A DNA stretch of 49,863 bases from Candidatus Bathyarchaeota archaeon JdFR-07 (GCA_002010975.1 MTLU01000001.1:1-49863); one strand, 5' to 3'. Counted from the stretch's first letter, positions 1 to 16,564 are shown. Numbers and translations: made by a program. The notes: generated from the sequence alone by a model not told the origin.

Positions 1-159
1 GACAGCACCTGGTTGTAGCCATATTTCTAAGTCTCCCACTTCCATTTCAAAATCTTCAAGTTCCACTTCCTGAAGTTGAGCTAGAAGTTCAAGTAGGCGA
101 GGGTTAAGCTTCAGCCCTAAAAGATCCCCTTTCTTCTCCTTTTCAGGCAAAAATTTCAC
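1..159 (-). CDS. cdhD: Partial N-terminus of acetyl-CoA decarbonylase/synthase delta subunit (CdhD-like), GTG start at 159, runs off left edge
   Basis: Reverse-strand translation VKFLPEKEKKGDLLGLKLNPRLLELLAQLQEVELEDFEMEVGDLEIWLQPGA; start overlaps cdhC stop; position downstream of cdhC. Confidence 0.6.
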   Translation of the reverse strand, partial: MKFLPEKEKKGDLLGLKLNPRLLELLAQLQEVELEDFEMEVGDLEIWLQPGAV

Positions 160-1565
160 CTTTTCTTTGATTTCTCGGTTTTTATCTGGCGAATTATGAC
201 TTTTTTGGCGTAGATTTTAGCATCTTTTAAAATTATTTTGAAGCCACCAGCGGTTATGGGCAAGGTTGGGGCTGTAATAATAGGTCCAGGTGCCATTTCT
301 TCAACTGCTTCAGCTGGAACTGCTTCTTCTACGGCAACTACTTCTTCTTTCCACTGCTCTACAATTGGATGGTTACGTTCTTTTAGGAAAGCTTTTAGTT
401 CGTCTATAGTTTTTGCGTCCTCCTCTGTGGCAATTTTGCCGACAAGTTCAGTAGGAATAAAATCCTTAACTCTTTCTTTAACTTCTTTGGGAATCCAGAC
501 TACTCGTTTCCATCCCCCGTCAGCTTGCAAGAATTTTGGAGATCGCATGTATTCAATGGATATTCCATGAAATCCGTCTACTTGACGTCCGCCTGCGGTG
601 GAGTCTGCTAAGGTAGAGAAAGGTAAACCGTTAACTGCTATGTCTTTGTATCCTCTGTGGATTATTCCAAAACCGTCTACTTCCGGAATGTAGAAGGCAA
701 CGCCTTCAAAACAACCGCAGGATGTATGAGGATAGCCAAAAGCTGTATAAAGCCATACTTTCGTTATTTCGCCTAAGGTTCTCTTTTTTGCGGTCTCGTT
801 TACTCCTGAAAATTCTCCTTTAACAGGGTCGAGGAGTTCTCCTTTTTCTATGGGGAAAACGGGTCCTTTAGGATCTATGCTAGCTGCAGCTCTTCCATCA
901 AACCAGCTTATAGCTCCACAGTTTGAATATCTTTGTGGTGTTATTACACACACATGGGTTGGGGCAAAGGACTGACATAGAACACAGCCATAGAACTTGT
1001 CCACTTCTTCATCTTTAAGTCCCCTTGCTCTAGCATCTCGCGCCTCGTAAATCTGTAATGCCTCGTTGTAAAGTTCCTTCACTTTTTCTGGGTCTGTAAT
1101 AAAGGTGACTTGCATTTTTTCGATTATAGGCAGTTCGCTTTTGAATAGTGTGTGCAGAACTTTGCCGATGTATTGAAAGGAGTTTAAACCTTTTTGGAAT
1201 GATTTCTTGCTTAGTCTAAGCCAAATGTCATAGCGTTGGTTAAGATGCATGAATCCTTCAATGAAGTTGCAGTATTCATGGATGCGTCTTTCTATTACTC
1301 CTTCAAGTTCTGGTTCAAGCTTTGGTCCAGCAACTTCGATAAGTATTCCTAGAGGATAGCTTTTTCCTTCTTCCATGTCTTTTATGTCTGACCCGATGAT
1401 GGATACTTTTCCGTCTTCAACTTCTTCTGGTTTTTTTACTCTTGTGAGTTCAAATTTTTCTTTTATGTTTGGTCCGCCAAGTTCCACATACATATCTTTT
1501 CTACGGATTCTTTCTCCTTCATAGATAACGCCTACATCAACCGGTATACCTTCAAACATGGACAT
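156..1565 (-). CDS. cdhC: Acetyl-CoA decarbonylase/synthase beta subunit (acetyl-CoA synthase)
   Basis: 469 aa; A-cluster-type cysteines FYGCVLCQSFAPTHVC and PHTSCGCFEG; family-typical GFHGISIEYMRSPKFLQADGGWKRVVW. Confidence 0.95.
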   Translation of the reverse strand: MSMFEGIPVDVGVIYEGERIRRKDMYVELGGPNIKEKFELTRVKKPEEVEDGKVSIIGSDIKDMEEGKSYPLGILIEVAGPKLEPELEGVIERRIHEYCNFIEGFMHLNQRYDIWLRLSKKSFQKGLNSFQYIGKVLHTLFKSELPIIEKMQVTFITDPEKVKELYNEALQIYEARDARARGLKDEEVDKFYGCVLCQSFAPTHVCVITPQRYSNCGAISWFDGRAAASIDPKGPVFPIEKGELLDPVKGEFSGVNETAKKRTLGEITKVWLYTAFGYPHTSCGCFEGVAFYIPEVDGFGIIHRGYKDIAVNGLPFSTLADSTAGGRQVDGFHGISIEYMRSPKFLQADGGWKRVVWIPKEVKERVKDFIPTELVGKIATEEDAKTIDELKAFLKERNHPIVEQWKEEVVAVEEAVPAEAVEEMAPGPIITAPTLPITAGGFKIILKDAKIYAKKVIIRQIKTEKSKKR

Positions 1566-1566
1566 T

Positions 1567-2109
1567 TCATGCGCCTCCTTCTATTTTTTCAATTATTACT
1601 TTAAGATTTTCTATCCAATCTTTTATAGAAATGTTTGGGAAAGACCAGCTTGCGTTAGGATGATAAACGTTGTCTAATGTTATGGTTTTAAGATTTTGGG
1701 CAAAATGTTTTAAACCTGAAAGTATGGTCCACTCCATGTAGTAGGGTAATCCAACGAACAAAGCCATGTCGTAAGGGCCTTTTCCGTCAAGGCCGTTCCA
1801 TTCTGGATCAGTGAGCCTGTTGCCGATGTCTACTGCAGGCATGAATCCTGCTGGCTTGTAATTTCTTTTTAAAAACTCGTTGATCATATGAGCAGTAGCT
1901 ACGATTGGAATTTTAGCTTTTTCAGCGAGTTCAATCATATAATCTACTACTTTTTTGTTTCCAAGCTCGATTTCTACAGCTTTATGGCCTACTATGAGAA
2001 CTGGTCGTTGGGCTCTTTTCATCATCGCTACTACTACTTCGGGTTTAGTTATGACTAAAGCTTTTTTTGGCCCTGGGATTTCTGCGGTTTGCCAAGGTTC
2101 TACAGCCAT
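1567..2109 (-). CDS. cdhB: CODH/ACS epsilon subunit
   Basis: 180 aa; position between cdhA and cdhC; RPVLIVGHKAVEIELG... KIPIVATAHMINEFLKR typical of the family. Confidence 0.9.
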   Translation of the reverse strand: MAVEPWQTAEIPGPKKALVITKPEVVVAMMKRAQRPVLIVGHKAVEIELGNKKVVDYMIELAEKAKIPIVATAHMINEFLKRNYKPAGFMPAVDIGNRLTDPEWNGLDGKGPYDMALFVGLPYYMEWTILSGLKHFAQNLKTITLDNVYHPNASWSFPNISIKDWIENLKVIIEKIEGGA

Positions 2110-2116
2110 TTTTCTT

Positions 2117-4465
2117 TCACTCCTTCTTTTTTCTTATTAGTCGAGGCAAAAGTGTTGGATCCGGAATTACTGTTTCTTTCCAATCCTTCTTTTCTAGAAT
2201 CTTTATTATTTCATCTTTCATAGTTACCGGGACATCAGCAATTGTTCTCACAAACAAGTGAATGTCTTCAGGCATAATGCCATATAATCGTTTATGTAAG
2301 TCTATATAATGCGTAAGTTTTATAGCTCTTCCCTTTGTTGTGTCATTAGGTCTCATACAAAGCTTAGCTATCATAACCATGGCTTCCTCCTTTGTTTCAG
2401 CCGCATAGAACAAATGTTCTGGCGTAGGTCCTACATACACTTTTTCACCTGTTCTAGCATCATACACATACCAATCTTCCTGCTTGTCTGCTCTTCCGAG
2501 AAGCATCCGCCGATATTTTATTCCATGCGGCCCGACAATTACAGGTACGCCCAAACGCCAGAAACCGCTTGCGATTGATGCAGCCTTTTGTGACATTGCA
2601 CCCCAAGCTACACCTACCGCACCTACACGATTAAGCACATAGTCGGCAATTTCCTCATAATTGGCGCGTAATTTACGTTTTGCAAATATGCTTGCGATTT
2701 TTATGGCTGCTCCTGCTATGTGCGGGTTTGAAACGCAAGAACCCACGTTTAGAATACCACCAGCGTCGAAATCGCCGGAATAAATTTCGTAAGGCGTCTT
2801 TCCTTCTTCGTTCTTGTACATGCCAGCTGACATAGCAGCACAACCCGAAGTCACGACAATGAACCTTCTCTTTGCAAATTCCATGACCATTTCAGCTATC
2901 TCCTTTCCTCCCTTTGGATAGTTGGCACATCCAACAAAGGCTACTACGCCTGGAATTTCACCTAAAACTATTGGACCACCCACATTTCTTATTTCAACAT
3001 CCTGAATCGGGCCTCTTCCAGCTCTAACTTTAAAAGTTTCTGCTTTCATCTTTTTCTCAGCAGCTTTCACTATAAAATTGTGGACGGGTATGTTTTCTGG
3101 GCAAGCATGCTCACATCTTGCACAACCTATACACGCATCGTATAACTCGTTAAGTTTCTCTAGGTTTCCTTCAACCGCTGCTTTCATTGCCTCTGGAATC
3201 GGCAGGTCATTGGGGCATGCTCTTCTACACTTATCGCATTGTCTGCAACGTTTTGCTTCTTCAATTACATTTTCAACGTTAGGAATAACCTTGAATTTTC
3301 CTCTTCTGGGCATAACTTCTATGGCAACTCTAACAGCTACTTCACCTGCTTTCTCTGGATCTAAGATAAGAACGCCTGGAACTTTTCCAGTGACTAGATC
3401 TTCCACTATCTTGTCTGGGGAGTCATGGGTTCTGTCTTCAAGGCCTTGACAGTTCTTTTCGCTTGTTGCAATAAAGGGGGCTTTAACTTTTTGAGCCTCT
3501 ATAAGTATATCTGTACGTATACATTGCTCATCAACAATTACAACGTCCGGAACTCCGCTTCTAACGAAACGGAGCTGCCAGGAAATGGGTCCTACAATTT
3601 TTGCTTTTGGATTGTATCTTGTTATGTCGTGTGCCGTGCAGCACAAACCGCAAACTTCAACTTCGCCTTGTAGACCGTTTTCAGTTAGGTAGTCTACTAT
3701 TCCTATGGCTGGAGGCACGTTGTGGCCTATGCATAGAATAACTGGTTTTTGTATGTCTATTGCTCCGAAGCCAAGCTCTACTAAAGGAGCTTCAGGGTTA
3801 GCTTTTGGAAATCCGTAAGCAGAAATCTGAGCTAGGTCGGCTATTTCCATTCCAACCTGGTCAATCATTCCTGCATGGAAAACTTTTGACTCAAAGTCAA
3901 GATTGCTTCCTTCTTGACCCGTGTGAGTTATGGAAAGCAAGTGTGTAAGCTGGTTTTCACAGTAGTCAAGTGCAGCTTCCAAGTCGCCGAGTGTTTCAGG
4001 TTTTATACCACAAACTAAACGAGTAACCGGAGCCTCTACTTCGACATTTACTCCACCTACATCAACAGGGTGTCTGCGACCGAATTCTTCTATTAGATGT
4101 TCAACCAAGTGGCGGGCATGTCCAATATGGGTTGCTGCTCCGATGCAGCAAGCTAAGAGCACTATTCGTGATTGTTGAGCTGACATGTTTAGTCCGCATG
4201 CCCCACGTTTGTTTCCAGTTAGATCGCATTTTCCAAAAGTGCACAAGCAGCAAACATCGCAGAAAGGTAAATAAAATGGTTTGAAACGTTGAAGAAGTTT
4301 AAAGTCCCAGTCTCTAAGCGTTGTCAAAGATGGAAAGGGCGTTGGTCCCATGGGTTCTTCCCATTTTTCTTCGATGATTTTGCCGATGGAAATTTCAAGG
4401 TTTTTTATGAGTCCGATGTTCCCTTTGAATTCGTCAACTTTTAAATGAACGTTTTTTCTGCTCAA
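2117..4465 (-). CDS. cdhA: CODH/ACS alpha subunit (Ni-Fe carbon monoxide dehydrogenase)
   Basis: 782 aa; CDVCCLCTFGKCDL, CRQCDKCRRACPNDLP and CIGCARCEHACPENIP Fe-S motifs. Confidence 0.96.
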   Translation of the reverse strand: MSRKNVHLKVDEFKGNIGLIKNLEISIGKIIEEKWEEPMGPTPFPSLTTLRDWDFKLLQRFKPFYLPFCDVCCLCTFGKCDLTGNKRGACGLNMSAQQSRIVLLACCIGAATHIGHARHLVEHLIEEFGRRHPVDVGGVNVEVEAPVTRLVCGIKPETLGDLEAALDYCENQLTHLLSITHTGQEGSNLDFESKVFHAGMIDQVGMEIADLAQISAYGFPKANPEAPLVELGFGAIDIQKPVILCIGHNVPPAIGIVDYLTENGLQGEVEVCGLCCTAHDITRYNPKAKIVGPISWQLRFVRSGVPDVVIVDEQCIRTDILIEAQKVKAPFIATSEKNCQGLEDRTHDSPDKIVEDLVTGKVPGVLILDPEKAGEVAVRVAIEVMPRRGKFKVIPNVENVIEEAKRCRQCDKCRRACPNDLPIPEAMKAAVEGNLEKLNELYDACIGCARCEHACPENIPVHNFIVKAAEKKMKAETFKVRAGRGPIQDVEIRNVGGPIVLGEIPGVVAFVGCANYPKGGKEIAEMVMEFAKRRFIVVTSGCAAMSAGMYKNEEGKTPYEIYSGDFDAGGILNVGSCVSNPHIAGAAIKIASIFAKRKLRANYEEIADYVLNRVGAVGVAWGAMSQKAASIASGFWRLGVPVIVGPHGIKYRRMLLGRADKQEDWYVYDARTGEKVYVGPTPEHLFYAAETKEEAMVMIAKLCMRPNDTTKGRAIKLTHYIDLHKRLYGIMPEDIHLFVRTIADVPVTMKDEIIKILEKKDWKETVIPDPTLLPRLIRKKKE

Positions 4466-4581
4466 CTATAACACCGAAAGGTTTTGAAGATTTAACATAA
4501 TCACTGAATTATTTTAAGTTTTTCTAGAAACTTTTTCTATTTTACAAGAAGAGAGTTTAGCATGATTAAGAACAAATTATG

Positions 4582-5346
4582 TTACGTGTAACCAGCATTT
4601 TTCAGTACGTTCTTCACGGAAACATAAGCTGGAGAATTCGAAGGAAGATCTAGTAAGGACTTACCAGCAAGAACATACTCTTCTACCTTCTCATCCCGTG
4701 ATATCTTTCCTAAATATTGCAGTTCTAAATTTTTTCCGGCCTTTTCCTTTAATTCTTCTGGAAATCTAAAACCACCTACAATGTAAAAGTTTTTGAAATC
4801 CATTTTCACTTCTTTCGCTATGCGATAGGCTCTTTCAATATGACTAAAGGATTTTTTTGAAGGATCTATAATGTCAAATATGTCATCTACCTTTGACGTT
4901 ATCCGCCTGTTTAGGTGTTCTAAACCTGCTGGCGAATCTATAAGCACATACTTGTAGTTTTTTGTCAGTGACTCTAATGCTCCTTTTAAAGCGGCGTTTG
5001 GTAGGCAATAACACCCTTCCACCCATTTTGTGCCGAGGGCAATAAAATCAAAATGATCACTTTCGTACATGCCGTAAGTCCAGATCCTACTTTCAATACG
5101 TTCGGTGGGCGGAACGCCTACAGTTGTACCTCCCTCTTCCAAGAAAGTTTGAACAAGCAGTTCTGAAACTGTCATTTTTCCTTTTTCTTTTAGGTCTACA
5201 CCCACCATTTCTCCTAGATTTTGGTCTGGATCCGCATCTACTAAAAGTAGTGGCGTTATGCCTTTTTCGATGAAGTATTTTGTCATAAGGGATACAAAGC
5301 TTGTTTTTCCAGTTCCTCCTCTTCCAATAGTGACCAAGATCTTCAT
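4582..5346 (-). CDS. CooC/AcsF-family nickel-insertion ATPase
   Basis: 254 aa; P-loop GRGGTGKTS; VDADPDQNLGEMVG; adjacent to cdhA. Confidence 0.8.
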   Translation of the reverse strand: MKILVTIGRGGTGKTSFVSLMTKYFIEKGITPLLLVDADPDQNLGEMVGVDLKEKGKMTVSELLVQTFLEEGGTTVGVPPTERIESRIWTYGMYESDHFDFIALGTKWVEGCYCLPNAALKGALESLTKNYKYVLIDSPAGLEHLNRRITSKVDDIFDIIDPSKKSFSHIERAYRIAKEVKMDFKNFYIVGGFRFPEELKEKAGKNLELQYLGKISRDEKVEEYVLAGKSLLDLPSNSPAYVSVKNVLKNAGYT

Positions 5347-5386
5347 ATTTTTCGCCTTTGTGCATAGGTAAAGCTTTTCAAACTTA

Positions 5387-6172
5387 TTAGTTGTTCTTTG
5401 CCATAGCCACTAGTTTATCGCATATTCTTTCTATAGCACATATGGCTACTGAATTTTTATGTCTTAACGGTGTTTCCCCTTGCATTTCTGCATCTAAAAT
5501 GGTTTGATCATATGGTACGAAATCTAAAACTTTTATGCTGTTTTTGTCGGCGAAAGATTCAATTGTTTTTTCTTCAAGGCTCTTTCTAATCTTGTTTCCT
5601 ACTAGAAAAATCTGTCTGATTCCAGCTTGGTTCGCTAATTTGTAAATTGAATGGGCTGTTTCAAGGGACTTCATGTTTGCATCGGCCACTATAAGCATGA
5701 GATCGACATGTTGAGCTGTTCCTCGGCCAATATGTTCTATGCCTGCTTCCATGTCCATAATTATTGCTTCGTTTCGTTCAACTATAAGATGACGAAGTAA
5801 GGCACGAATAACTGCATTAGCTGGACAAGTACATCCAGATCCCATGGACTGTACGGTTCCCATTACAATTAAATTAACACCGAAAGGTGTTATTACAGAA
5901 AAATCGCGGACTATATCATCTACTGTAAATGATAAACGGAAAACACCAGCGTATCCTGTGCCAGTTTTGGATTCAATAAGTTCTTTATTTTCTGATATAG
6001 GCAATATTTGTCTTGCTTCTTCTATAGGTAAGCCTAATGTAAGAGCGAGATTGGGTGAGGGATCAGCGTCAATAGCCACCGTTTTTATTCCCCTAGAGAC
6101 AAGAGAATAGGCCAAACCTCCTGCAATGAGCGTTTTACCCACGCCACCCTTACCAGATACTGCGATTTTCAA
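5387..6172 (-). CDS. cooC: CooC-family CODH maturation ATPase
   Basis: 261 aa; deviant Walker A SGKGGVGKT; IDADPSPNLALTLG; GSGCTCPANAVIRALL; MDMEAGIEHIGRGT. Confidence 0.88.
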   Translation of the reverse strand: MKIAVSGKGGVGKTLIAGGLAYSLVSRGIKTVAIDADPSPNLALTLGLPIEEARQILPISENKELIESKTGTGYAGVFRLSFTVDDIVRDFSVITPFGVNLIVMGTVQSMGSGCTCPANAVIRALLRHLIVERNEAIIMDMEAGIEHIGRGTAQHVDLMLIVADANMKSLETAHSIYKLANQAGIRQIFLVGNKIRKSLEEKTIESFADKNSIKVLDFVPYDQTILDAEMQGETPLRHKNSVAICAIERICDKLVAMAKNN

Positions 6173-7715: not shown

Positions 7716-7950
7716 CAGGAACCTTTATGATAATGAGAGTAGTGGATCCTTCCACTCCTTTGATTGTTCGCACAGTATCAAAAATGAAGGAATCTAGGTC
7801 GTCTAGGGTTTCCATTTCAACTTTGAGAAGTAGATCATATTCTCCATAAAGGGTTTCTGCTACTTTCACTTGAGGAAATTTTTCTACCGTGTGCAATACT
7901 TTTCTGTCCATTCCAGGCTTAATTCTCAGCAAAACGTAAGCACCAATCAT
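7693..7950 (-). CDS. Stand-alone Lrp/AsnC RAM domain protein
   Basis: 85 aa; VKVAETLYGEYDLLLKVEMETLDDLDSFIFDTVRTIKGVEGSTTLIII; overlaps both neighbours. Confidence 0.85.
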   Translation of the reverse strand: MIGAYVLLRIKPGMDRKVLHTVEKFPQVKVAETLYGEYDLLLKVEMETLDDLDSFIFDTVRTIKGVEGSTTLIIIKVPGEKSERR

Positions 7951-8963
7951 TTCTTTATTTTCTCCGTTGATTCTTTAAAATGTGGGAATACTTGTGTAGC
8001 TATCATGTTAATAGATTTTCGCATATTCGGACCTATAGGTGAACCAGCAACTACTTGGTTAACACCTACTTTAACAAGTTTATTGATTTTCTCTACGCAT
8101 TTTTCTGGGTTTCCACAAATAGAAAACGTTTCTACCATATGTTCGTCAACTAGAGAGAATGCTTCTTTCCATTTGCCATGGACTATAGATTCGCGAATTC
8201 TATAAGCCTGTTCCATAGAAATTCTATGTTTTTCTAATATTATGCTTGGTGAACCAGCAACTATGTATGCTACAACGGGGAGCACAGCTTTTAATGCTTT
8301 TTCATAAGTAGAGGCTATAGAAAAAGAGGTGTAAGCACTAATCTCTAAATCGCTGGTTTTTTTACTCGCCCTTTCTGCCCCTTCTCGAATGAATTTTACA
8401 GCATTTTCTACGTCTTGTGGGTGTGAAGCATTTATTAGTACACCGTCCCCGATTTCTGCCGCCAGAGCTAACATCTTTGGACCTTGAGCTCCAATGAAAA
8501 TTGGAACCTGATTAGCCACTTTAAAGTTCAGTTTAGCTCCTGAAACTTTGAAAATTTTCCCTTCCATTTCCACAGTTTTCCCAGAAACAAATTCGCGGAT
8601 AATTCTTACAGATTCTCTTATAGTGCCTAAGGGTTTTTTAGGTTCTACATTGACTATCTGTAGCGTTGTTTTATCTCCAACACCAAGGCCGCATACAACT
8701 CTTCCTGGGGCTATTTCGTTAAGAGTAGCCACAGCTTGAGCCGTAACCACGGGATGCGACAGATATGGATTGGTAACTCCTGGGCCGAATTTTATTCTTT
8801 CAGTATAGGCTGATATTATGGCGAGGGAGACGTACACATTTCTATTATTAAAATGGTCCGTAATCCAAAGGTAATCGAATCCGATTTTTTCGGCTTGTAT
8901 TGCATAAAAGGTGGTTTTCCAGTAAAGGTCTCTCGGGACAAATTCTATTCCAAATTCGATCAT
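7947..8963 (-). CDS. mer: 5,10-methylenetetrahydromethanopterin reductase (F420-dependent, LLM family)
   Basis: 338 aa; FGIEFVPRD, DYLWITDHFNNRNVYV, IKFGPGVTNPYLSHPVVTAQAVATLNE; in the CODH/ACS block. Confidence 0.88.
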   Translation of the reverse strand: MIEFGIEFVPRDLYWKTTFYAIQAEKIGFDYLWITDHFNNRNVYVSLAIISAYTERIKFGPGVTNPYLSHPVVTAQAVATLNEIAPGRVVCGLGVGDKTTLQIVNVEPKKPLGTIRESVRIIREFVSGKTVEMEGKIFKVSGAKLNFKVANQVPIFIGAQGPKMLALAAEIGDGVLINASHPQDVENAVKFIREGAERASKKTSDLEISAYTSFSIASTYEKALKAVLPVVAYIVAGSPSIILEKHRISMEQAYRIRESIVHGKWKEAFSLVDEHMVETFSICGNPEKCVEKINKLVKVGVNQVVAGSPIGPNMRKSINMIATQVFPHFKESTEKIKK

Positions 8964-9051
8964 GGAAGTCGTTTCTCCAATCCCTTTAGGAATAGTTTTA
9001 TTTTGTTTTAAAATGTTTTATAAAAAAGGGAAAATAGAGAATTGTTTAACC

Positions 9052-9342
9052 TTATTTCATTGTTTCTTTCAGCATTACTGCGATTTCATGAACACCTAAT
9101 TCTTCCATAAGATTGATGGTTTTCTCATGTTCCAAAATCATGGCAGCTTCAAGAAGGCGTTGTAGCCCAATTTCAGTGGCGAGCTGATCTCTTTGCCAAT
9201 AATAAAGAATTGTTTTTGCAAGATCACTGGGCATGTTACTGGCGTTGGGAGAGTTTAAAATAATATCTATCAACTTTTCAGAGGCTTCGTTCCATAGGGA
9301 AGTAGGAATTTTCCGTGCTATTTTTTCCATGGCCATTAACAT
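9052..9342 (-). CDS. Conserved-looking helical hypothetical protein
   Basis: 96 aa ORF in the gap upstream of mer; no family recognised. Confidence 0.5.
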   Translation of the reverse strand: MLMAMEKIARKIPTSLWNEASEKLIDIILNSPNASNMPSDLAKTILYYWQRDQLATEIGLQRLLEAAMILEHEKTINLMEELGVHEIAVMLKETMK

Positions 9343-9438
9343 AACACTCCAATTGCATATCTACTTTTAATATATACTATAGTTAAAAAATAAGGTTTAT
9401 TGTAATGGAAAACGTCACTGTAATGTTCGAGATAATGC

Positions 9439-9510
9439 ATAAACAATCTAAATTACTTTGTTTATTGTTTGTAAATTATAAACGATTTGATTGTTTATCG
9501 TTGTTTATGC
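9439..9510. promoter_or_regulatory. Cluster of TTGTTTAT-like operator candidates between divergent genes
   Basis: TTGTTTAT exact on + at 9458, 9491, 9501; reverse complement ATAAACAA at 9439; near copies at 9465 (TTGTTTGT) and 9478 (ATAAACGA); outer arms GCATAAACAA/TTGTTTATGC are a perfect inverted repeat. Confidence 0.6.
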
Positions 9511-9604
9511 TATATGTTTTTGCATATTAAAAGTCATTAGACGTACGAAAAATGTATAAAGATTAACATATAATTAATTATTTTCAGAATCTGGTGAACA
9601 AAAA

Positions 9605-10054
9605 ATGGCGTTTATCGACATGCTTGATATGAAGATACTTAAGGCGCTTCAAGTGGATGCTAGAAAACCTGTAATCCAAATAGCTAGGGAAGTAGGAGCC
9701 AATGAAGCTACCGTTAGGAGACGCATAAATAAACTCATAGAACAGGGTATCATTGAGAGATTTACTGTGGTTTTGGATTATCACAAACTTGGACGTATTA
9801 TAAAAGCTTTCATTGGACTTAAAGTACAGCCAGCTAAACTTAAAGAAATTGTTGATCACCTTTCGAGACATCCTGACATCCAAGTACTATATCGGACAAG
9901 CGGAGATACAGATATATTTGCTGAAGTTATCTTTGAAAAAATGGAGGATCTGAAAGAATTTCTTGAAAAAGAATTAGGAATAGATGGAATTTTAGGAACA
10001 ATAGTCACTATTGTTATTGGACCCTATAAAAAGTGCCCATGGACAGGACTTTAA
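9605..10054 (+). CDS. Lrp/AsnC-family transcriptional regulator (HTH + RAM)
   Basis: 149 aa; LDMKILKALQVDARKPVIQIAREVGANEATVRRRINKLIEQGIIERFTVVLDYHKLG. Confidence 0.95.
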   Translation: MAFIDMLDMKILKALQVDARKPVIQIAREVGANEATVRRRINKLIEQGIIERFTVVLDYHKLGRIIKAFIGLKVQPAKLKEIVDHLSRHPDIQVLYRTSGDTDIFAEVIFEKMEDLKEFLEKELGIDGILGTIVTIVIGPYKKCPWTGL

Positions 10055-12153
10055 AGTCTCTGAAGTTGACCCGCATCTATTTCTTTCAGATGAGACGCAA
10101 AATTTGCAGCGATTCTGATGATCGCGTCCTTTTCCGCAGCGGATGCTTTTCCCATATGTAGTTTTTCAGGATTTATTCCAACGGCTTTAAGCCAAATTTT
10201 CGTTTCTTTTATTCTTTTGGCAGTGGTTAGAGCTCCAAAACCGTAATGGCAGTCATTTTCTGAACAGCCTATAATTAGTACACCGTCAGCTCCAGTTTGG
10301 AATGCTTGAAGTATGTGATAAGGGTCAACTCTGCCAGTGCACTTAACTGGAATTATCTGAAAGCCTGCTTTTTCTTTAAGCTGGTTTATATCTTCACGGT
10401 GAGACCAGTTGCATATAAAGGCAACAATACGGGGTTCATTGTCTCTCCAGATTTTTTTTGCTTCCATTACTAAATTGGAGAGTTTCTCATTTGTGAAGTT
10501 AGTCATAGAAATTGCTAAAGCCGGGCATTCAACCGCACAGGTTCCACATCCCTTGCACAAATTTTGATTGACTTTAGCCACGAATTTTTCAACTTTTATG
10601 GCTCCAAACTCGCATATTTTTTCGCAGTTGGCGCAGGCAATGCATTTATCTTCATCCACTATAACATCATCAGGTTCACATAACTCTTCCATTTCTAAGC
10701 ATTGCACACATGGGGCACAGAAGAAACATCTATATGCTTCCCTTATACCCGTCTCTACATCATAACCAAGTTCTACTTCTTGAAAGTTAGTAGAACGTTC
10801 AGAAGCTGCTAGAACTGGCATTAACTGTCTGGGTCTTTTTTCAAAAACTTCTTCGCTTGGAACCCAAGTAGTTTCTGGTATTTCCTTTTCTCTTCCAGCT
10901 TTTAGGTCCATTCCTCTTAGGTAACGATTTATGGAAACTGCTGCCTTTTTACCAGCCGCAATGGCATCTATAACTGATGCGGGTCCTGTGACAACATCTC
11001 CGCCAGCAAAAACTCCCGGCATTTTTGTCTCTAGCGTGAGGGGATCAACGATTATTGTGTTCCTTTTAGAAATTTCAATTGTTTTTGGTAAGAAGGAAAC
11101 ATCTGGTTTTTCTCCTATTGCCAATATGGCTGTATTAACCTGAACCAAGAACTCAGAACCTTCGATGGGAATTGGCCGTCTTCTGCCACTTTCATCTGGT
11201 GGACCCAATCTCATTTTAAGACATTCTACTGCGACTAATTTTCCATTGTCGCCAATGAACCTTTTCGGTGAAGCTAGAAAAAGGAACTTTACTCCTTCGG
11301 CCTTCGCTTCTTCAACTTCTTTATGATGCGCTGGCATCTCCATTTCTGATCGTCTATAGATTATTGTTACTTCATCCACTCCTAGGCGTTTTGCTGTTCT
11401 GGCTGAGTCGATGGCAACGTTCCCTCCTCCTATAACAGCTACTTTTTCTCCCAGTTCAATCTTTTCTCCAGCATTAACTTTTTTTAGAAATTCGATAGAG
11501 TGAAGCACTCCGTGAAGGTTTTCTCCTTCGCAATTAAGATTTAGGCTTTTTGGGGCGCCTGTAGCTATAAAAATAGCTTTATAACCTGCATCAGATAGAC
11601 TTTCTATAGTGAAATCTTTACCAAGGGCAGAGTTCGTTTTTATTTCTACACCTAAATCCATAATATACTGTAACTCTGCGTCAAGCACATCTTTGGGCAA
11701 ACGATACGAAGGAATACATTCTCGAAGCATACCTCCAGCTTTAGAAGATTTTTCAAAAATGGTTACTGGATAGCCTATTCTAACGAGCTCGTAAGCTGCG
11801 GCAATTCCTGCTGGACCAGAACCAATTATCGCTATTTTTTCTTTATATTTTCTTGGTGCTGGTTTTGGCTTTTCATATTTTCCGTCTTTAAGCTCATAGT
11901 CTGCTACAAGTCTTTTTAATGCTCGGATGCTTAGAGCCTCGTCAATGTCTTTTCTTGTGCAAACATCTTCACAGGGGCTGAAGCATACTCTTCCACAAAC
12001 GGCTGGAAGGGGAATATCTTTTCTTATAATTTCTAAGGCTTCTTTCAGTTTTCCTTGACTTATTAAAGCTATATAGGCTTGGATGTTGATGTGGGCGGGG
12101 CAAGCTTTACGACAAGGAGGATAGCATTCTTCAGCATTTTTAACGGATGTCAT
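10051..12153 (-). CDS. GltD-like FAD oxidoreductase fused to 2x[4Fe-4S] ferredoxin and MvhD-like domain (likely start at 12153; ORF open to 12258)
   Basis: CYPPCRKACPAHINIQAYI; GSGPAGIAAAYELVRIGY; CIACANCEKICEFGAIKV; CKGCGTCAVECPALAI; C-terminal IVAFICNWSHREDI...VKCTGRVDPYHILQAFQTGADGVLIIGCSENDCHYGFGALTTAKR. Confidence 0.9.
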   Translation of the reverse strand: MTSVKNAEECYPPCRKACPAHINIQAYIALISQGKLKEALEIIRKDIPLPAVCGRVCFSPCEDVCTRKDIDEALSIRALKRLVADYELKDGKYEKPKPAPRKYKEKIAIIGSGPAGIAAAYELVRIGYPVTIFEKSSKAGGMLRECIPSYRLPKDVLDAELQYIMDLGVEIKTNSALGKDFTIESLSDAGYKAIFIATGAPKSLNLNCEGENLHGVLHSIEFLKKVNAGEKIELGEKVAVIGGGNVAIDSARTAKRLGVDEVTIIYRRSEMEMPAHHKEVEEAKAEGVKFLFLASPKRFIGDNGKLVAVECLKMRLGPPDESGRRRPIPIEGSEFLVQVNTAILAIGEKPDVSFLPKTIEISKRNTIIVDPLTLETKMPGVFAGGDVVTGPASVIDAIAAGKKAAVSINRYLRGMDLKAGREKEIPETTWVPSEEVFEKRPRQLMPVLAASERSTNFQEVELGYDVETGIREAYRCFFCAPCVQCLEMEELCEPDDVIVDEDKCIACANCEKICEFGAIKVEKFVAKVNQNLCKGCGTCAVECPALAISMTNFTNEKLSNLVMEAKKIWRDNEPRIVAFICNWSHREDINQLKEKAGFQIIPVKCTGRVDPYHILQAFQTGADGVLIIGCSENDCHYGFGALTTAKRIKETKIWLKAVGINPEKLHMGKASAAEKDAIIRIAANFASHLKEIDAGQLQRL

Positions 12154-12275
12154 TCTTGAGCCTCTAATTTTTATGCTCAACTGGGTGAAGAGGGTAAAAG
12201 GAATACATAGCGAGAATATTAAACTTACGTTATAAACAACCGCCATCTTATAGAGCAATTCTTATATTTTCCGTT

Positions 12276-13937
12276 TTGGCTCATATGTGCTTCTTCAAGG
12301 AGGCAAGTTCATACTTGATAATAGTACAACAGAAACCGTTAGAAGAAATTTTTGAAATGACTAAAGATTTTCAAAAGATTCTGGTAGCTGGTTGTGATGG
12401 ATGTGCTGCTATAATCCAAGTTGGAGGAGAAAAACAAGCTGAAATACTGAAGATGCTACTGGAAATGAATAGAAAACTAAAAGGCAATGATGGGTTAAAG
12501 GTCAAAGCGTTTTCGGTTTTAAGGCAATGTGATAGACAAATAGTCGCCAGTTCCCTTCGTGCCTTAGTAGAGGATTATGATGCGGTTGTCAGTTTGGCTT
12601 GTGGTGTAGGTGTGCAAACAATTGCCGAGTTATACCCAAATATGCCTGTTATACCAGCCAATAATACTGAATTTATCGGAATGCATGACTTAAAGGAGGA
12701 CAAGTTTTATGAAATGTGTAGAGCATGTGGAGATTGTATTCTTTTTGAAACTGGTGGAGTATGCCCAATAACGAGATGCGCTAAAGGCCTTCTTAATGGT
12801 CCTTGCGGAGGCCAAGCCAAAGGAAAGTGTGAGGTTGGTGGCTGGAAGAAGGATTGTGCTTGGGTACTTATTTACAATCGTTTAAAAGAAAGGAATAGAT
12901 TAGATCTTTTCAAAAAATTCAGAATTCCAAGAGATTATAGGATTTCGGAACATCCAAGAGAGATTGGCGGCGAATATGTTTTAGAAAAAAAAGTGGAGAT
13001 CGAAGAGGTAATCACTCAGTGGAAGGGTGAAGCTTATAGTGAGCTTATGAAGCAGATAAAAGAAGGCAAATTTGTTTTTACAGGAGAACTTGAACCTGTA
13101 AAAACAACAAGTCTTCACGAAGTTATCGAAGGCGCTAAAACGTTAAAGGGGCATGTTGTAGCAATCAACATAACTGATAACCCTACAGCTTTCGGATATA
13201 TGAACGCACTTGTCCCCTCATATCTAATTCAAAAAGAGGCTGGGGTTGAAGCTGTTTACCAGATGACTGCTAGGGATAGAAACCGTCTGGCTCTTCTTTC
13301 CGATGTTCTGGCAGCAGGCACTTTAGGAATAAAGAACATTTTAGTTTTGACTGGCGATTATACAACTGTGGGTGATACGCCTCAATCAAAACCTGTATTT
13401 GATCTTGATTCTGCAACTTTTACGTATATGCTTAGGAAAGTAATAGATGAGGGTGTGGATCTGTCTGGAAATAAAATAGAGAATCCTCCAAAGATGAACA
13501 TAGGGATTGCTGCAGCGCCTAATGCGGATCCTTTAGAACCGGAAATCCTTAAGATTGAGAGAAAAGTGAAGCTTGGAGTCGATTTCATCCAAACACAATG
13601 TGTTTACAGCGTAGAGCAGGCTAAACGTTTTCTAGAAGCAGCATCCTACCTTAAAACTCCGATTCTGATTGGTATTGCACCTTTTAAATCTCGAGCTATG
13701 ATGGACTGGATGATAAAATTTGTTCCAGGGATAAAGGTTCCTGAGGAAGTTGAGCAGCGTCTTCGGAGAGCTAGAGAGAAAGGCAAGGAGGCTTTTCAGG
13801 AAGAGAACATCGAAATTTTTGGTGAGATAATTAGGGAGATTCGAAAGACAACTAATGCTGCGGGGATTCACATGATGGCTATAGGTTTTGAATGGATTGT
13901 ACCGAAAATAATTGAAAGAAGTGGCATAATATCTTAA
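12276..13937 (+). CDS. MetV-like Fe-S/zinc domain fused to methylenetetrahydrofolate reductase (MetF)
   Basis: 553 aa; N-terminal MetV-type CRACGDCILFETGGVCPITRCAKGLLNGPCGG; C-terminal MetF TIM barrel FTGELEPVKTTSLHEVIEGA...ILVLTGDYT; start uncertain (TTG at 12276 or a later TTG). Confidence 0.9.
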   Translation: MAHMCFFKEASSYLIIVQQKPLEEIFEMTKDFQKILVAGCDGCAAIIQVGGEKQAEILKMLLEMNRKLKGNDGLKVKAFSVLRQCDRQIVASSLRALVEDYDAVVSLACGVGVQTIAELYPNMPVIPANNTEFIGMHDLKEDKFYEMCRACGDCILFETGGVCPITRCAKGLLNGPCGGQAKGKCEVGGWKKDCAWVLIYNRLKERNRLDLFKKFRIPRDYRISEHPREIGGEYVLEKKVEIEEVITQWKGEAYSELMKQIKEGKFVFTGELEPVKTTSLHEVIEGAKTLKGHVVAINITDNPTAFGYMNALVPSYLIQKEAGVEAVYQMTARDRNRLALLSDVLAAGTLGIKNILVLTGDYTTVGDTPQSKPVFDLDSATFTYMLRKVIDEGVDLSGNKIENPPKMNIGIAAAPNADPLEPEILKIERKVKLGVDFIQTQCVYSVEQAKRFLEAASYLKTPILIGIAPFKSRAMMDWMIKFVPGIKVPEEVEQRLRRAREKGKEAFQEENIEIFGEIIREIRKTTNAAGIHMMAIGFEWIVPKIIERSGIIS

Positions 13938-13940
13938 TTC

Positions 13941-14474
13941 TTAAAATTCCATGCTTTCTTTTTTGGTTGCTATAAAAACATTTACACCTTTAATTTTTGA
14001 CGGATGTTTTTCAAATTTGAAGCCAAACATCCCTTCAAAATAACCTCTTAAATACGGTGTAGGGAGAGGACAAGATTCTATTTTTATTTCGTTTTTTACA
14101 CGAGAAAATCTACCCCATCCCATAATTTCTAACTCTCTAAGCACTATAGACCAGTTCTGCGGGTCAGAAAAATCTACATCTTTGAAAAAGGGATTTGTAA
14201 GTTTTCTTTTGAAGGCTGTAGCTTTTGCGGCGTTGAGTATTTTCTGGTTTGATAATCCATGAAACAGATCGGATATCATGGTCGTATCCATTAAGATGAC
14301 TCTGCCTCCTCCCATGCGGTATGTATATGGAAGCCAATCATGCATGGCGAGTCTCCTATAAAACTCTAAGGCTGTGGTTAGAGCTTCTTCTTTACTTTTA
14401 ATAAATTTAGATTTTTCAAGAAAAGTAAGATAGTTATACAGATTGTCTGGAATTGTTAAGACGATTTCTTTCAA
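13941..14474 (-). CDS. Hypothetical protein with N-terminal RHH-like segment
   Basis: 177 aa; KEIVLTIPDNLYNYLTFLEKSKFIKSKEEALTTALEFYRRLA resembles ribbon-helix-helix. Confidence 0.6.
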   Translation of the reverse strand: MKEIVLTIPDNLYNYLTFLEKSKFIKSKEEALTTALEFYRRLAMHDWLPYTYRMGGGRVILMDTTMISDLFHGLSNQKILNAAKATAFKRKLTNPFFKDVDFSDPQNWSIVLRELEIMGWGRFSRVKNEIKIESCPLPTPYLRGYFEGMFGFKFEKHPSKIKGVNVFIATKKESMEF

Positions 14475-14562: not shown

Positions 14563-15603
14563 ATGGGCTTTGCAAAAATAAGCTATGAGGAATCTCTAGA
14601 AAAGAGTGTTATAGCAACAGGAAAATGTGTGGGTTGTGGCACTTGTGTTGTTGTCTGCCCCTTTGCTTGTTTAGAATATGTTGATGGTAACCCTAAACTG
14701 GTGAAAGAATGCAAAGTTTGCGGCATTTGTGCAGGTGCTTGTCCAAGATATGAATGGTCATGGTCTAAGGCTGAAAATTTTGTTTTTGGTCGAGAGAAAA
14801 AGAATGATGAAAATTTTGGTATATATCGGAAAATGGTGGTTGCTAAGGCGACAGATGATGAGATATTGAAGATCTGTCAAGATGGGGGCGTTGCAACTGC
14901 TTTAGTAGCCTTTGCTTTGGAAGAAGGGTTGATTGATGGTGCAATTCTTTCTGGAAAAAACCGAGAGAAACCCTTCTCTCCGATTCCGAAACTGGCAAAA
15001 AGTAGAGAAGATGTTTTAGAATGTGCTGGAACTAAATACTCTTATTCTCCCAATATTCTTGCAATTACAGATGCTTTAAAGGAGAAAAAGACAAATCTAG
15101 CTTTCGTTGGAACTCCTTGCCAAATCCACGCCATAAGAAAAATGCAAATGGCTGGATTGAAGAAGTATGTTGCCCCGTTAAAGTTTTTGATCGGGCTTAT
15201 GTGTTCTGAAAGCTTCACTTATAAAGGTCTGATGGAGACTCATCTGCAACAAACTTTGGGCATCAACTTACATAAAATAAGGAAAATGAACATTAAAGGT
15301 AAAATGTTGGTAACATTACCTTCAGAGGTTAAGGCTGTCCCCTTAAAGGAAATAAAGAAGTATGTACGAAACAGTTGCAAATTGTGCGATGACTTTAGCT
15401 CTGAGTTGGCTGATATCTCCTTAGGTGGTTTGGGCTTAAATGAGTGGACGTTTGTGATTCTACGTACAGAGACAGGCGAAAAACTTTTTGAATCTGCTCA
15501 AAAAGCTGGGGCTCTAAAAACTAGACCATTAGAGAAGGATGAGTTTGCCTTAAATTTGCTTGTTAAGCTTTCAGCTAAAAAAAGAAAGCAAAAGGTTGAG
15601 TAG
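14563..15603 (+). CDS. frhB: Coenzyme F420 hydrogenase/dehydrogenase beta-subunit family protein
   Basis: 346 aa; CVGCGTCVVVCPFACLEY, CKVCGICAGACP; QDGGVATALVAFALEEGLIDGAI; VGTPCQIHAIRKMQ. Confidence 0.9.
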   Translation: MGFAKISYEESLEKSVIATGKCVGCGTCVVVCPFACLEYVDGNPKLVKECKVCGICAGACPRYEWSWSKAENFVFGREKKNDENFGIYRKMVVAKATDDEILKICQDGGVATALVAFALEEGLIDGAILSGKNREKPFSPIPKLAKSREDVLECAGTKYSYSPNILAITDALKEKKTNLAFVGTPCQIHAIRKMQMAGLKKYVAPLKFLIGLMCSESFTYKGLMETHLQQTLGINLHKIRKMNIKGKMLVTLPSEVKAVPLKEIKKYVRNSCKLCDDFSSELADISLGGLGLNEWTFVILRTETGEKLFESAQKAGALKTRPLEKDEFALNLLVKLSAKKRKQKVE

Positions 15604-15637
15604 TTTCAAGCGAATATGTTGTTTTCGAGATGTCTTT

Positions 15638-16564
15638 ATGAGCCTTGTCACAGCCTTAGCCGGAGGAGTAGGAGCAGCTCGCCTATTAAAAGGCTTGGTC
15701 CATGTTATTCCTCCAGAAAGACTGGTTATTATAGGCAATACAGGAGATGATGTTGAATTTTACGGCCTTCACATATCCCCTGACCTAGACATTCTGATGT
15801 ATACTTTAGCTGGCATTGTAGATGAAACCAAAGGTTGGGGAGTTTCTGGCGATACTTTTAACTGTCTTGAAATGCTCGGCAAGTTAGGTTTTGAAATATG
15901 GTTTAAGCTTGGTGACAGAGATCTTGCAATTCACATTGCTAGAACAAAATTTCTAAATGAAGGTATAACTCTTTCCGAAGTTACATGTAAACTTTGTCAG
16001 AGGTTAGGAGTTAAAGCTAAACTTGTGCCCATGACTAATGACCGCGTTAGTACCAAAATTATTTCAGGTAATCTTTGGTTGGATTTTCAAGAATATTTTG
16101 TGAAGAGGAAAACCGAGGACACAGTAACAGAAGTGGTGTTTGAAGGAGCGGATAAGGCTCAGCCGGCCCCTATGGTTGTTGAAGCATTGGAGGAAGCTGA
16201 AAAAGTAATAATTTGTCCGAGTAACCCGATTTTGAGTGTATCACCCATGCTTTCGATTCCCAAGATAAATGCTGCTTTAAAAAAAACTGACGCGTATATT
16301 GTAGCTGTCAGCCCCATTGTAGGTGGAAAAGCCCTGAAAGGGCCTGCTGACAGAATAATGGCCAGTATGGGCTTAGAAGTTTCAGCTTATGGAGTTGCTG
16401 AATTCTACAAGGATTTTCTTGACCATATAATCATCGATGAAGTTGACAAACACCAGAAGAAACGCATAGAAGCTATAGGTATAAAAGTTACAGTAGCCGA
16501 TACCATTATGAAAAGTCTCGAGGATTCTATTCACTTGGCAAAAATCGTTATGAACGCACAATAA
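15638..16564 (+). CDS. cofD: 2-phospho-L-lactate transferase (F420 biosynthesis), preferred start at 15638
   Basis: TALAGGVGAARLLKGL, GNTGDDVEFYGLHISPDLDILMYTLAG, CPSNPILSVSPML. Confidence 0.93.
   Translation: MSLVTALAGGVGAARLLKGLVHVIPPERLVIIGNTGDDVEFYGLHISPDLDILMYTLAGIVDETKGWGVSGDTFNCLEMLGKLGFEIWFKLGDRDLAIHIARTKFLNEGITLSEVTCKLCQRLGVKAKLVPMTNDRVSTKIISGNLWLDFQEYFVKRKTEDTVTEVVFEGADKAQPAPMVVEALEEAEKVIICPSNPILSVSPMLSIPKINAALKKTDAYIVAVSPIVGGKALKGPADRIMASMGLEVSAYGVAEFYKDFLDHIIIDEVDKHQKKRIEAIGIKVTVADTIMKSLEDSIHLAKIVMNAQ

Follow-up and report, generated by a model that had tools for sequence, protein, structure and literature searches.

How is a MetV-MetF reductase supplied with electrons, and what is left for it to do, in an archaeal genome that also encodes the F420-dependent reductase Mer? 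This question is raised by a contig of Candidatus Bathyarchaeota archaeon JdFR-07, a MAG of 0.91 Mb that is 65% complete. The window, that is, the whole stretch of 49,863 nucleotides analyzed here, is one entire contig of this MAG; every close relative of its source belongs to Ca. Bathyarchaeota, and the organism is an uncultured sediment archaeon of the Bathyarchaeia. A first-pass annotation of the window had described a MetV-MetF fusion (MetVF) facing a GltD-ferredoxin-MvhD fusion (GltD-MvhD) and had proposed that the two proteins form a possibly bifurcating reductase, linked to F420 through FrhB. The relevant features are as follows; the names cdhB, CooC, cofD and cofE, the last being a further gene near the pair, were assigned from sequence and position.

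156..6172, minus strand: CODH/ACS genes cdhC-cdhB-cdhA (TIGR00314, TIGR00316) and two CooC-type ATPases, the consumer of the methyl group
7947..8963, minus strand: mer, F420-dependent methylene-H4MPT reductase, the step shared with MetVF
9052..9342, minus strand: orf96, small conserved protein adjoining mer, without a Pfam match
9605..10054, plus strand: Lrp/AsnC-family regulator (PF13404/PF01037), syntenic with the cluster
10051..12153, minus strand: fusion of a GltD/NfnB-like FAD-NAD(P)H domain, two 4Fe-4S motifs and MvhD, 700 aa; ATG at 12153, ORF open to 12258
12154..12314: divergent intergenic region of 161 bp between both likely starts, with comparable spacing in relatives
12315..13937, plus strand: MetV-MetF fusion (PF12225 and PF02219); likely TTG start, ORF open from 12276
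13941..14474, minus strand: orf177, conserved, without a Pfam match
14563..15603, plus strand: FrhB-type F420 reductase with an N-terminal ferredoxin domain (PF04422/PF04432), 346 aa; a candidate, non-exclusive partner
15560..16564, plus strand: cofD-like ORF (F420 biosynthesis) overlapping the end of frhB, recognized by sequence and position, without a library match

The nearby Mer was correctly recognized as a canonical F420-dependent enzyme (423 bits against a TIGR03555 cut-off of 348.7). Synteny with mer and MetVF extends, in many genera, to orf96, orf177 and the Lrp-type regulator.

MetVF is a single ORF with matches to PF12225 (E 7e-32) and PF02219 (E 2e-29). MetV and MetF therefore do share one polypeptide, as first annotated; the length given at that time, 553 aa, has to be revised to 540 aa, as translation most likely starts at TTG 12315, 11 nt past a Shine-Dalgarno sequence, AAGGAGG (12297-12303). 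Twelve Cys columns are conserved in MetV, each retained in at least 51 of 53 sequences, including that of the window. The catalytic residues of MetF were located with a reference that we take to be the E. coli MetF sequence, and all three are retained in the alignment (E271, 52/52; D361, 52/52; Q441, 49/52), the Asp and Gln being seen additionally against human MTHFR. The AF2 model of the single chain reached a pLDDT of 89.9 and a pTM of 0.90, and the MetF fold matched Thermus MetF (TM 0.83). A Mer-type luciferase-like match (TIGR03555) was absent from MetVF, and was obtained only for the separate gene at 7947-8963. By eye, the N-terminal domain of MetV seemed to resemble MvhD; this was discarded, as the best 50 fold matches were MetF structures only.

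The opposing gene encodes PF14691, PF07992 (Pyr_redox_2), two Fer4 motifs and FlpD/MvhD (E 4e-30), the FlpD domain occupying 611-727 of the protein that adjoins MetVF. Its most likely start (ATG 12153) was chosen from ribosome-binding sites and homologue alignment, and the head-to-head arrangement with a protein of about 700 aa is thus confirmed. The two [4Fe-4S] clusters first assigned to it are both represented by Fer4 motifs; that count was nevertheless too low, since the GltD cluster domain and conserved MvhD cysteines come in addition. The GltD part is nearest to the large subunits of NfnABC and StnABC, and the N-terminal segment of its cluster domain (FxEVxLGY...RCxxC) is relocated past the Rossmann domains, as in NfnABC/StnC. 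At the proximal-cluster ligand position next to FAD, the NfnB-type Glu is absent and Lys80 is found instead, equivalent to StnC K170, with Lys in all rows that cover the site; the FAD-side Arg is kept (R151, equivalent to StnC R239). In StnC, Lys170 holds the proximal cluster and the FAD is reported to be non-bifurcating, whereas the residue is Glu in NfnB (PMC10482914). By the rule applied in PMC12054007, GGGNVA as the second Rossmann motif agrees with NADP(H). No Pfam match to a NuoG/FdhF-like domain was obtained in GltD-MvhD, and MvhD occupies that place.

Several observations on related genes were made in passing. In six f6 genomes from five genera (L033, L034, L035, L038, L039 and L040), gltD-mvhD has no ATG, GTG or TTG at the homologous start; a conserved ACG lies about 8 nt after AGGAGG instead, where the relative L037 has GTG, and from the sequences this ACG looks like a genuine start codon. 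Internal 'stops' in 832-aa GltD-MvhD matches reflect two adjacent genes rather than pseudogenes. In L053-L059, GltD is followed by a separate MvhD protein inside HdrA-HdrC-HdrB-NiFe clusters, several of which have a GcvH-like gene upstream, and the MvhD protein of L056 also matches an HTH model; these separate proteins are a possible source of the fused form. L060, L061 and other matches of 1.1-1.3 kaa are long proteins that contain GltD and have HdrC/HdrB as neighbours; they may be type III HdrA, and they seem commoner in Bathyarchaeia than the nine sequences of PMC12054007.

We searched the proteins of 257 Bathyarchaeia genomes and detected MetVF in 68 and full GltD-MvhD in 15, all 15 of which also carried MetVF. 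The two genes were adjacent and divergent in 14 of 14 testable pairs, 13 of them on one contig and that of G143 adjacent up to the contig end; G154, where both genes lie at contig ends, was left out of this count. The pair spans about 12 genera in the families f1, where MetVF is fused, and f6, where MetV and MetF are separate. The class-wide association of GltD-MvhD with MetVF gave a Fisher P of 6e-10, uncorrected for relatedness. Two near-complete f6 genomes (G183 and G185) carry neither GltD-MvhD nor MetVF, and the test within f6 (10 versus 2) gave a P of about 0.015, likewise uncorrected for relatedness. G192 was rejected as a third co-loss because its frhB reaches the contig end exactly where both genes would follow; a previous f6 result that counted it (10 versus 3, P = 0.0035) was too strong. 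The neighbourhood is thus conserved as expected for a joint system, and pairing this far above chance (15/15 and 14/14) supports the view that the two genes are a functional unit, probably a reductase together with its electron donor.

What this unit may do is suggested by the residues of its donor and by the potentials involved, which lie near –320 mV for methylene-H4MPT, –360 mV for F420 and –320 mV for NADP. With these values, linear transfer would run near equilibrium, and bifurcation to ferredoxin would be unattractive. Lys80 together with GGGNVA also favours linear, reversible transfer from NADP(H) through FAD, [4Fe-4S] clusters and MvhD to MetV and MetF; the Lys80 argument draws on one characterized relative. 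With moderate confidence, we therefore read the pair as a two-protein, linear, NADP(H)-linked, reversible methylene-H4MPT reductase, which would act beside Mer here and replace Mer in relatives. The GltD domain would exchange hydride between NADP(H) and FAD, and single electrons would pass along the [4Fe-4S] clusters of GltD-MvhD to the [2Fe-2S] plug of MvhD, then to the Fe-S clusters of MetV and the MetF flavin, linearly and without bifurcation. At this flavin, methylene-H4MPT would be reduced to methyl-H4MPT for CODH/ACS, or the reverse. We infer a physical complex of the two proteins, in which electrons could run in either direction. In favour of MvhD as the partner, Sporomusa MvhD pulled down MetF (PMC9430772). 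Against our proposal, purified MetVF of acetogens accepted ferredoxin electrons and Hdr/MvhD was absent from the copurification (PMC9430772); the presence of Mer in the same genome also counts against it, since a second reductase is then not obviously required.

The place of FrhB in this scheme is less secure. The gene first reported downstream of the pair is indeed present, just beyond the end that had been assigned to the cluster, and its product matches FrhB_N (E 2e-24) and FrhB_C (E 7e-42). In most f6 genomes, frhB is the next gene downstream of GltD-MvhD and shares its strand, and in the window and in f4 (order frhB-ECF-metV-metF) it lies near MetVF, which is consistent with the suggested F420 link; a dedicated role is weakened by orthologues in genomes without MetVF and by its nearest structures, which include, besides FrhB 3zfs, the F420-reductase subunits CODH zeta 8riu and Fwd 8rja. 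FrhB as an exclusive subunit of MetVF was rejected on the basis of these orthologues and of the FrhB tree, which largely tracks families. It is in fact quite possible that FrhB stands outside the system, as an F420-reductase subunit of CODH/ACS or of formylmethanofuran dehydrogenase as in Ca. Ethanoperedens, and lies nearby since all of these are C1 genes, a reading compatible with our proposal for the main pair. Its combination of ferredoxin and F420-reductase domains is that of the 8riu and 8rja subunits, and Fwd-type genes, Mtd, Mer or cdh genes are found in the vicinity of orthologues: mer is a few genes away in G142/G143, and mtd is the neighbour in G154, G156, G067 and G069. The gene orders in f6 and f4 argue against this reading. 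FrhB is accordingly a possible, non-specific F420 port of the MetVF complex, which may feed or drain the chain with F420(H2) and would probably serve other C1 enzymes too. In L030-L032, L098 and L099, a gene for an ECF-transporter substrate-binding component adjoins frhB or sits between frhB and metV, and this arrangement is conserved. In G181 (L040 10753-12621; G181:C1:87258), frhB is split: an acyl-transferase (AAT) domain is joined to the first half, and the second half lies elsewhere; Mtd is likewise found at two places in this genome, through rearrangement or assembly error.

A different division of labour would make GltD-MvhD and FrhB an NADPH:F420 oxidoreductase that replaces a missing Fno and delivers F420H2 to Mtd/Mer, with MetVF as a mere neighbour running on ferredoxin, the donor used by the purified acetogen enzyme. 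In 23 genomes, no Fno exceeded the cut-off; NADP and F420 must then be linked in some other way, for which GltD-MvhD with FrhB is a candidate, and the f6 gene order fits this role. As a replacement for our reading, it is unlikely: it is MetVF that GltD-MvhD tracks (15/15), FrhB, Mer and Mtd persist without GltD-MvhD, and metVF, not frhB, adjoins GltD-MvhD in the window, G142 and G155.

Bifurcation, as first suggested for this locus, was not borne out. Such an enzyme would pass electrons from NADPH or F420H2 both to methylene-H4MPT/H4F, at high potential, and to ferredoxin, at low potential, a mechanism proposed for MetFV-HdrABC-MvhD of Moorella. It could appeal to the nearest solved GltD relatives, which are the electron-bifurcating NfnABC and StnABC complexes, to the likeness of the MvhD and ferredoxin domains to HdrA-MvhD, and to the HdrA present at other MetVF loci. 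With Lys80 in place of the NfnB Glu, as in StnC with its non-bifurcating FAD, bifurcation by GltD is unsupported; no second bifurcating module was identified within the pair, and an H4MPT couple near –320 mV is generally known to offer scant driving force. We therefore regard bifurcation as distinctly unlikely and retain linear transfer as the preferred mechanism.

The gene content around the pair bears on its substrate. No GltD-type genome, not even the 100% complete G142 and G188, gave a FolD or Fhs match in searches whose controls responded; Mtd was found in 30 of 36 MetVF genomes, frequently close to MetVF; and L048 (G212) has a same-strand run of Fwd-type genes, Mch, polyferredoxin-MvhD, MetV and MetF, in a genome in which no Mer, FolD or Fhs was found. 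To judge from this gene content, the substrate of MetVF is probably methylene-H4MPT. That MetVF instead reduces methylene-H4F for methionine synthesis, as MetF/MetV does in Methanosarcina, is very improbable: H4F does give the protein family its name, and MetF of Methanosarcinaceae works in H4F anabolism (PMC9012536), but FolD and Fhs are absent and MetVF loci adjoin CODH/ACS, Mtd, Mer, Fwd and Mch. In L089 and L098, a protein of about 575 aa follows Mtd, the L089 copy matching Mpt_N (methylene-H4MPT dehydrogenase N-terminal).

Counted at an identity of at least 46%, Mer was present in 54 of the 257 genomes, 24 of which also carried MetVF and 30 of which did not, and 44 genomes had MetVF only. 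Those with MetVF and no Mer include the near-complete G188, G066, G069, G170, G171, G174 and G212, so MetVF can probably stand in for Mer; G189, congeneric with G188, has both. The original wording, that the pair works 'beside or instead of Mer', is therefore supported in both parts. Missing Mer has been read as loss of the Wood-Ljungdahl methyl branch in the TB1 lineage from termite guts (PMC7886697); with 44/257 genomes carrying MetVF without Mer, missing Mer alone should not be taken to mean such a loss in Bathyarchaeia.

Contexts were also compared for 54 groups of MetV/MetF genes, whose loci had all been retrieved through a MetV/MetF match. A protein with an MvhD domain was the immediate neighbour in 25 of them, against about 0.8% expected from FlpD counts (about 3-14 FlpD genes per genome tested). 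The carriers are GltD-Fer4-MvhD, HdrA-MvhD of 1.1-1.2 kaa (L014, L043, L063) and polyferredoxin-MvhD, the last in some cases at loci with NiFe hydrogenase subunits (L020-L022, L070). About half of the bathyarchaeal MetVF loci have no MvhD neighbour, so MetVF may also work without MvhD. Five context labels changed 16 times on the MetF tree (minimum 4; shuffled mean 31.7); partner contexts are thus clustered yet repeatedly exchanged. In genus g32, for example, closely related MetVF are accompanied by GltD-MvhD in G155 and by HdrA-MvhD in G156. The first 20 kb of the window hold no HdrA/B/C cluster members, with GltD instead. Outside Bathyarchaeia, L080 and L081 carry an HdrA/MvhD/NiFe set divergent from MetV-MetF, and family f30 has MetVF without such a set. 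In L020 (G206), a single polyferredoxin-MvhD gene lies between a fused and a split copy of MetVF. Tentatively, archaeal MetVF might be a modular methylene-H4MPT reductase, whose common MvhD plug takes NADPH (GltD-MvhD), H2 (NiFe hydrogenase with polyferredoxin-MvhD) or HdrA-MvhD input; it would thereby replace Mer across Bathyarchaeia, and this step of the methyl branch would no longer depend on F420H2.

Acetogens are known to combine MetF/MetV with HdrA and MvhD, the same combination has been remarked on in Ca. Syntrophoarchaeum, MetF has been proposed in place of Mer in ANME-1 (PMC9430772, PMC10322722, PMC9012536), and the MetF tree of PMC9012536 (Chadwick 2022) already groups Bathyarchaeota sequences. 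In the open-licence papers found, we saw no description of the GltD-MvhD/MetVF pair, of a GltD-ferredoxin-MvhD partner that goes strictly with MetVF, or of an exchange of input modules. PMC9012536 leaves open how the archaeal MetF-type reductases of ANME-1 exchange their electrons. A likely electron partner encoded beside the reductase makes this question testable, and the pairing offers an answer to how such archaea run this methyl step without the usual F420 enzyme.

Among known systems, HdrCBA-MvhD-MetVF of Moorella thermoacetica and Sporomusa ovata likewise encodes MetV and MetF together with an MvhD-bearing electron-transfer partner; here, in contrast, GltD stands for HdrABC, ferredoxin and MvhD are fused to GltD, MetV is fused to MetF, the two genes diverge and the pathway uses H4MPT. 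MetF and MetV of ANME-1, Ca. Syntrophoarchaeum and uncultured archaea are similar in that they are thought to replace Mer and in that Fno is missing, whereas the sections of PMC9012536 that treat them describe no GltD-ferredoxin-MvhD partner, which is encoded beside MetVF here. The F420-reductase subunits of Ca. Ethanoperedens share the architecture of the window FrhB, a candidate partner of MetVF, and serve CODH or Fwd (PMC11493965). Type III HdrA with inserted GltD also combines GltD with Hdr-type parts, also in Bathyarchaeota (PMC12054007), but its core is much longer and has HdrB/C neighbours, and GltD-MvhD lacks the HdrA core. NfnB (NfnL) shares the GltD fold (aligned by Foldseek, the identity to 5jca_L is 44%) and differs by its proximal-cluster Glu and by lacking MvhD. 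The large subunit StnC/NfnABC (8oh5, 9bov, 9n5u) has the GltD-type FAD/NADPH domain, the permuted cluster segment and the proximal-cluster Lys in common with GltD-MvhD, which carries two Fer4 motifs and MvhD in place of the NuoG/FdhF-like region.
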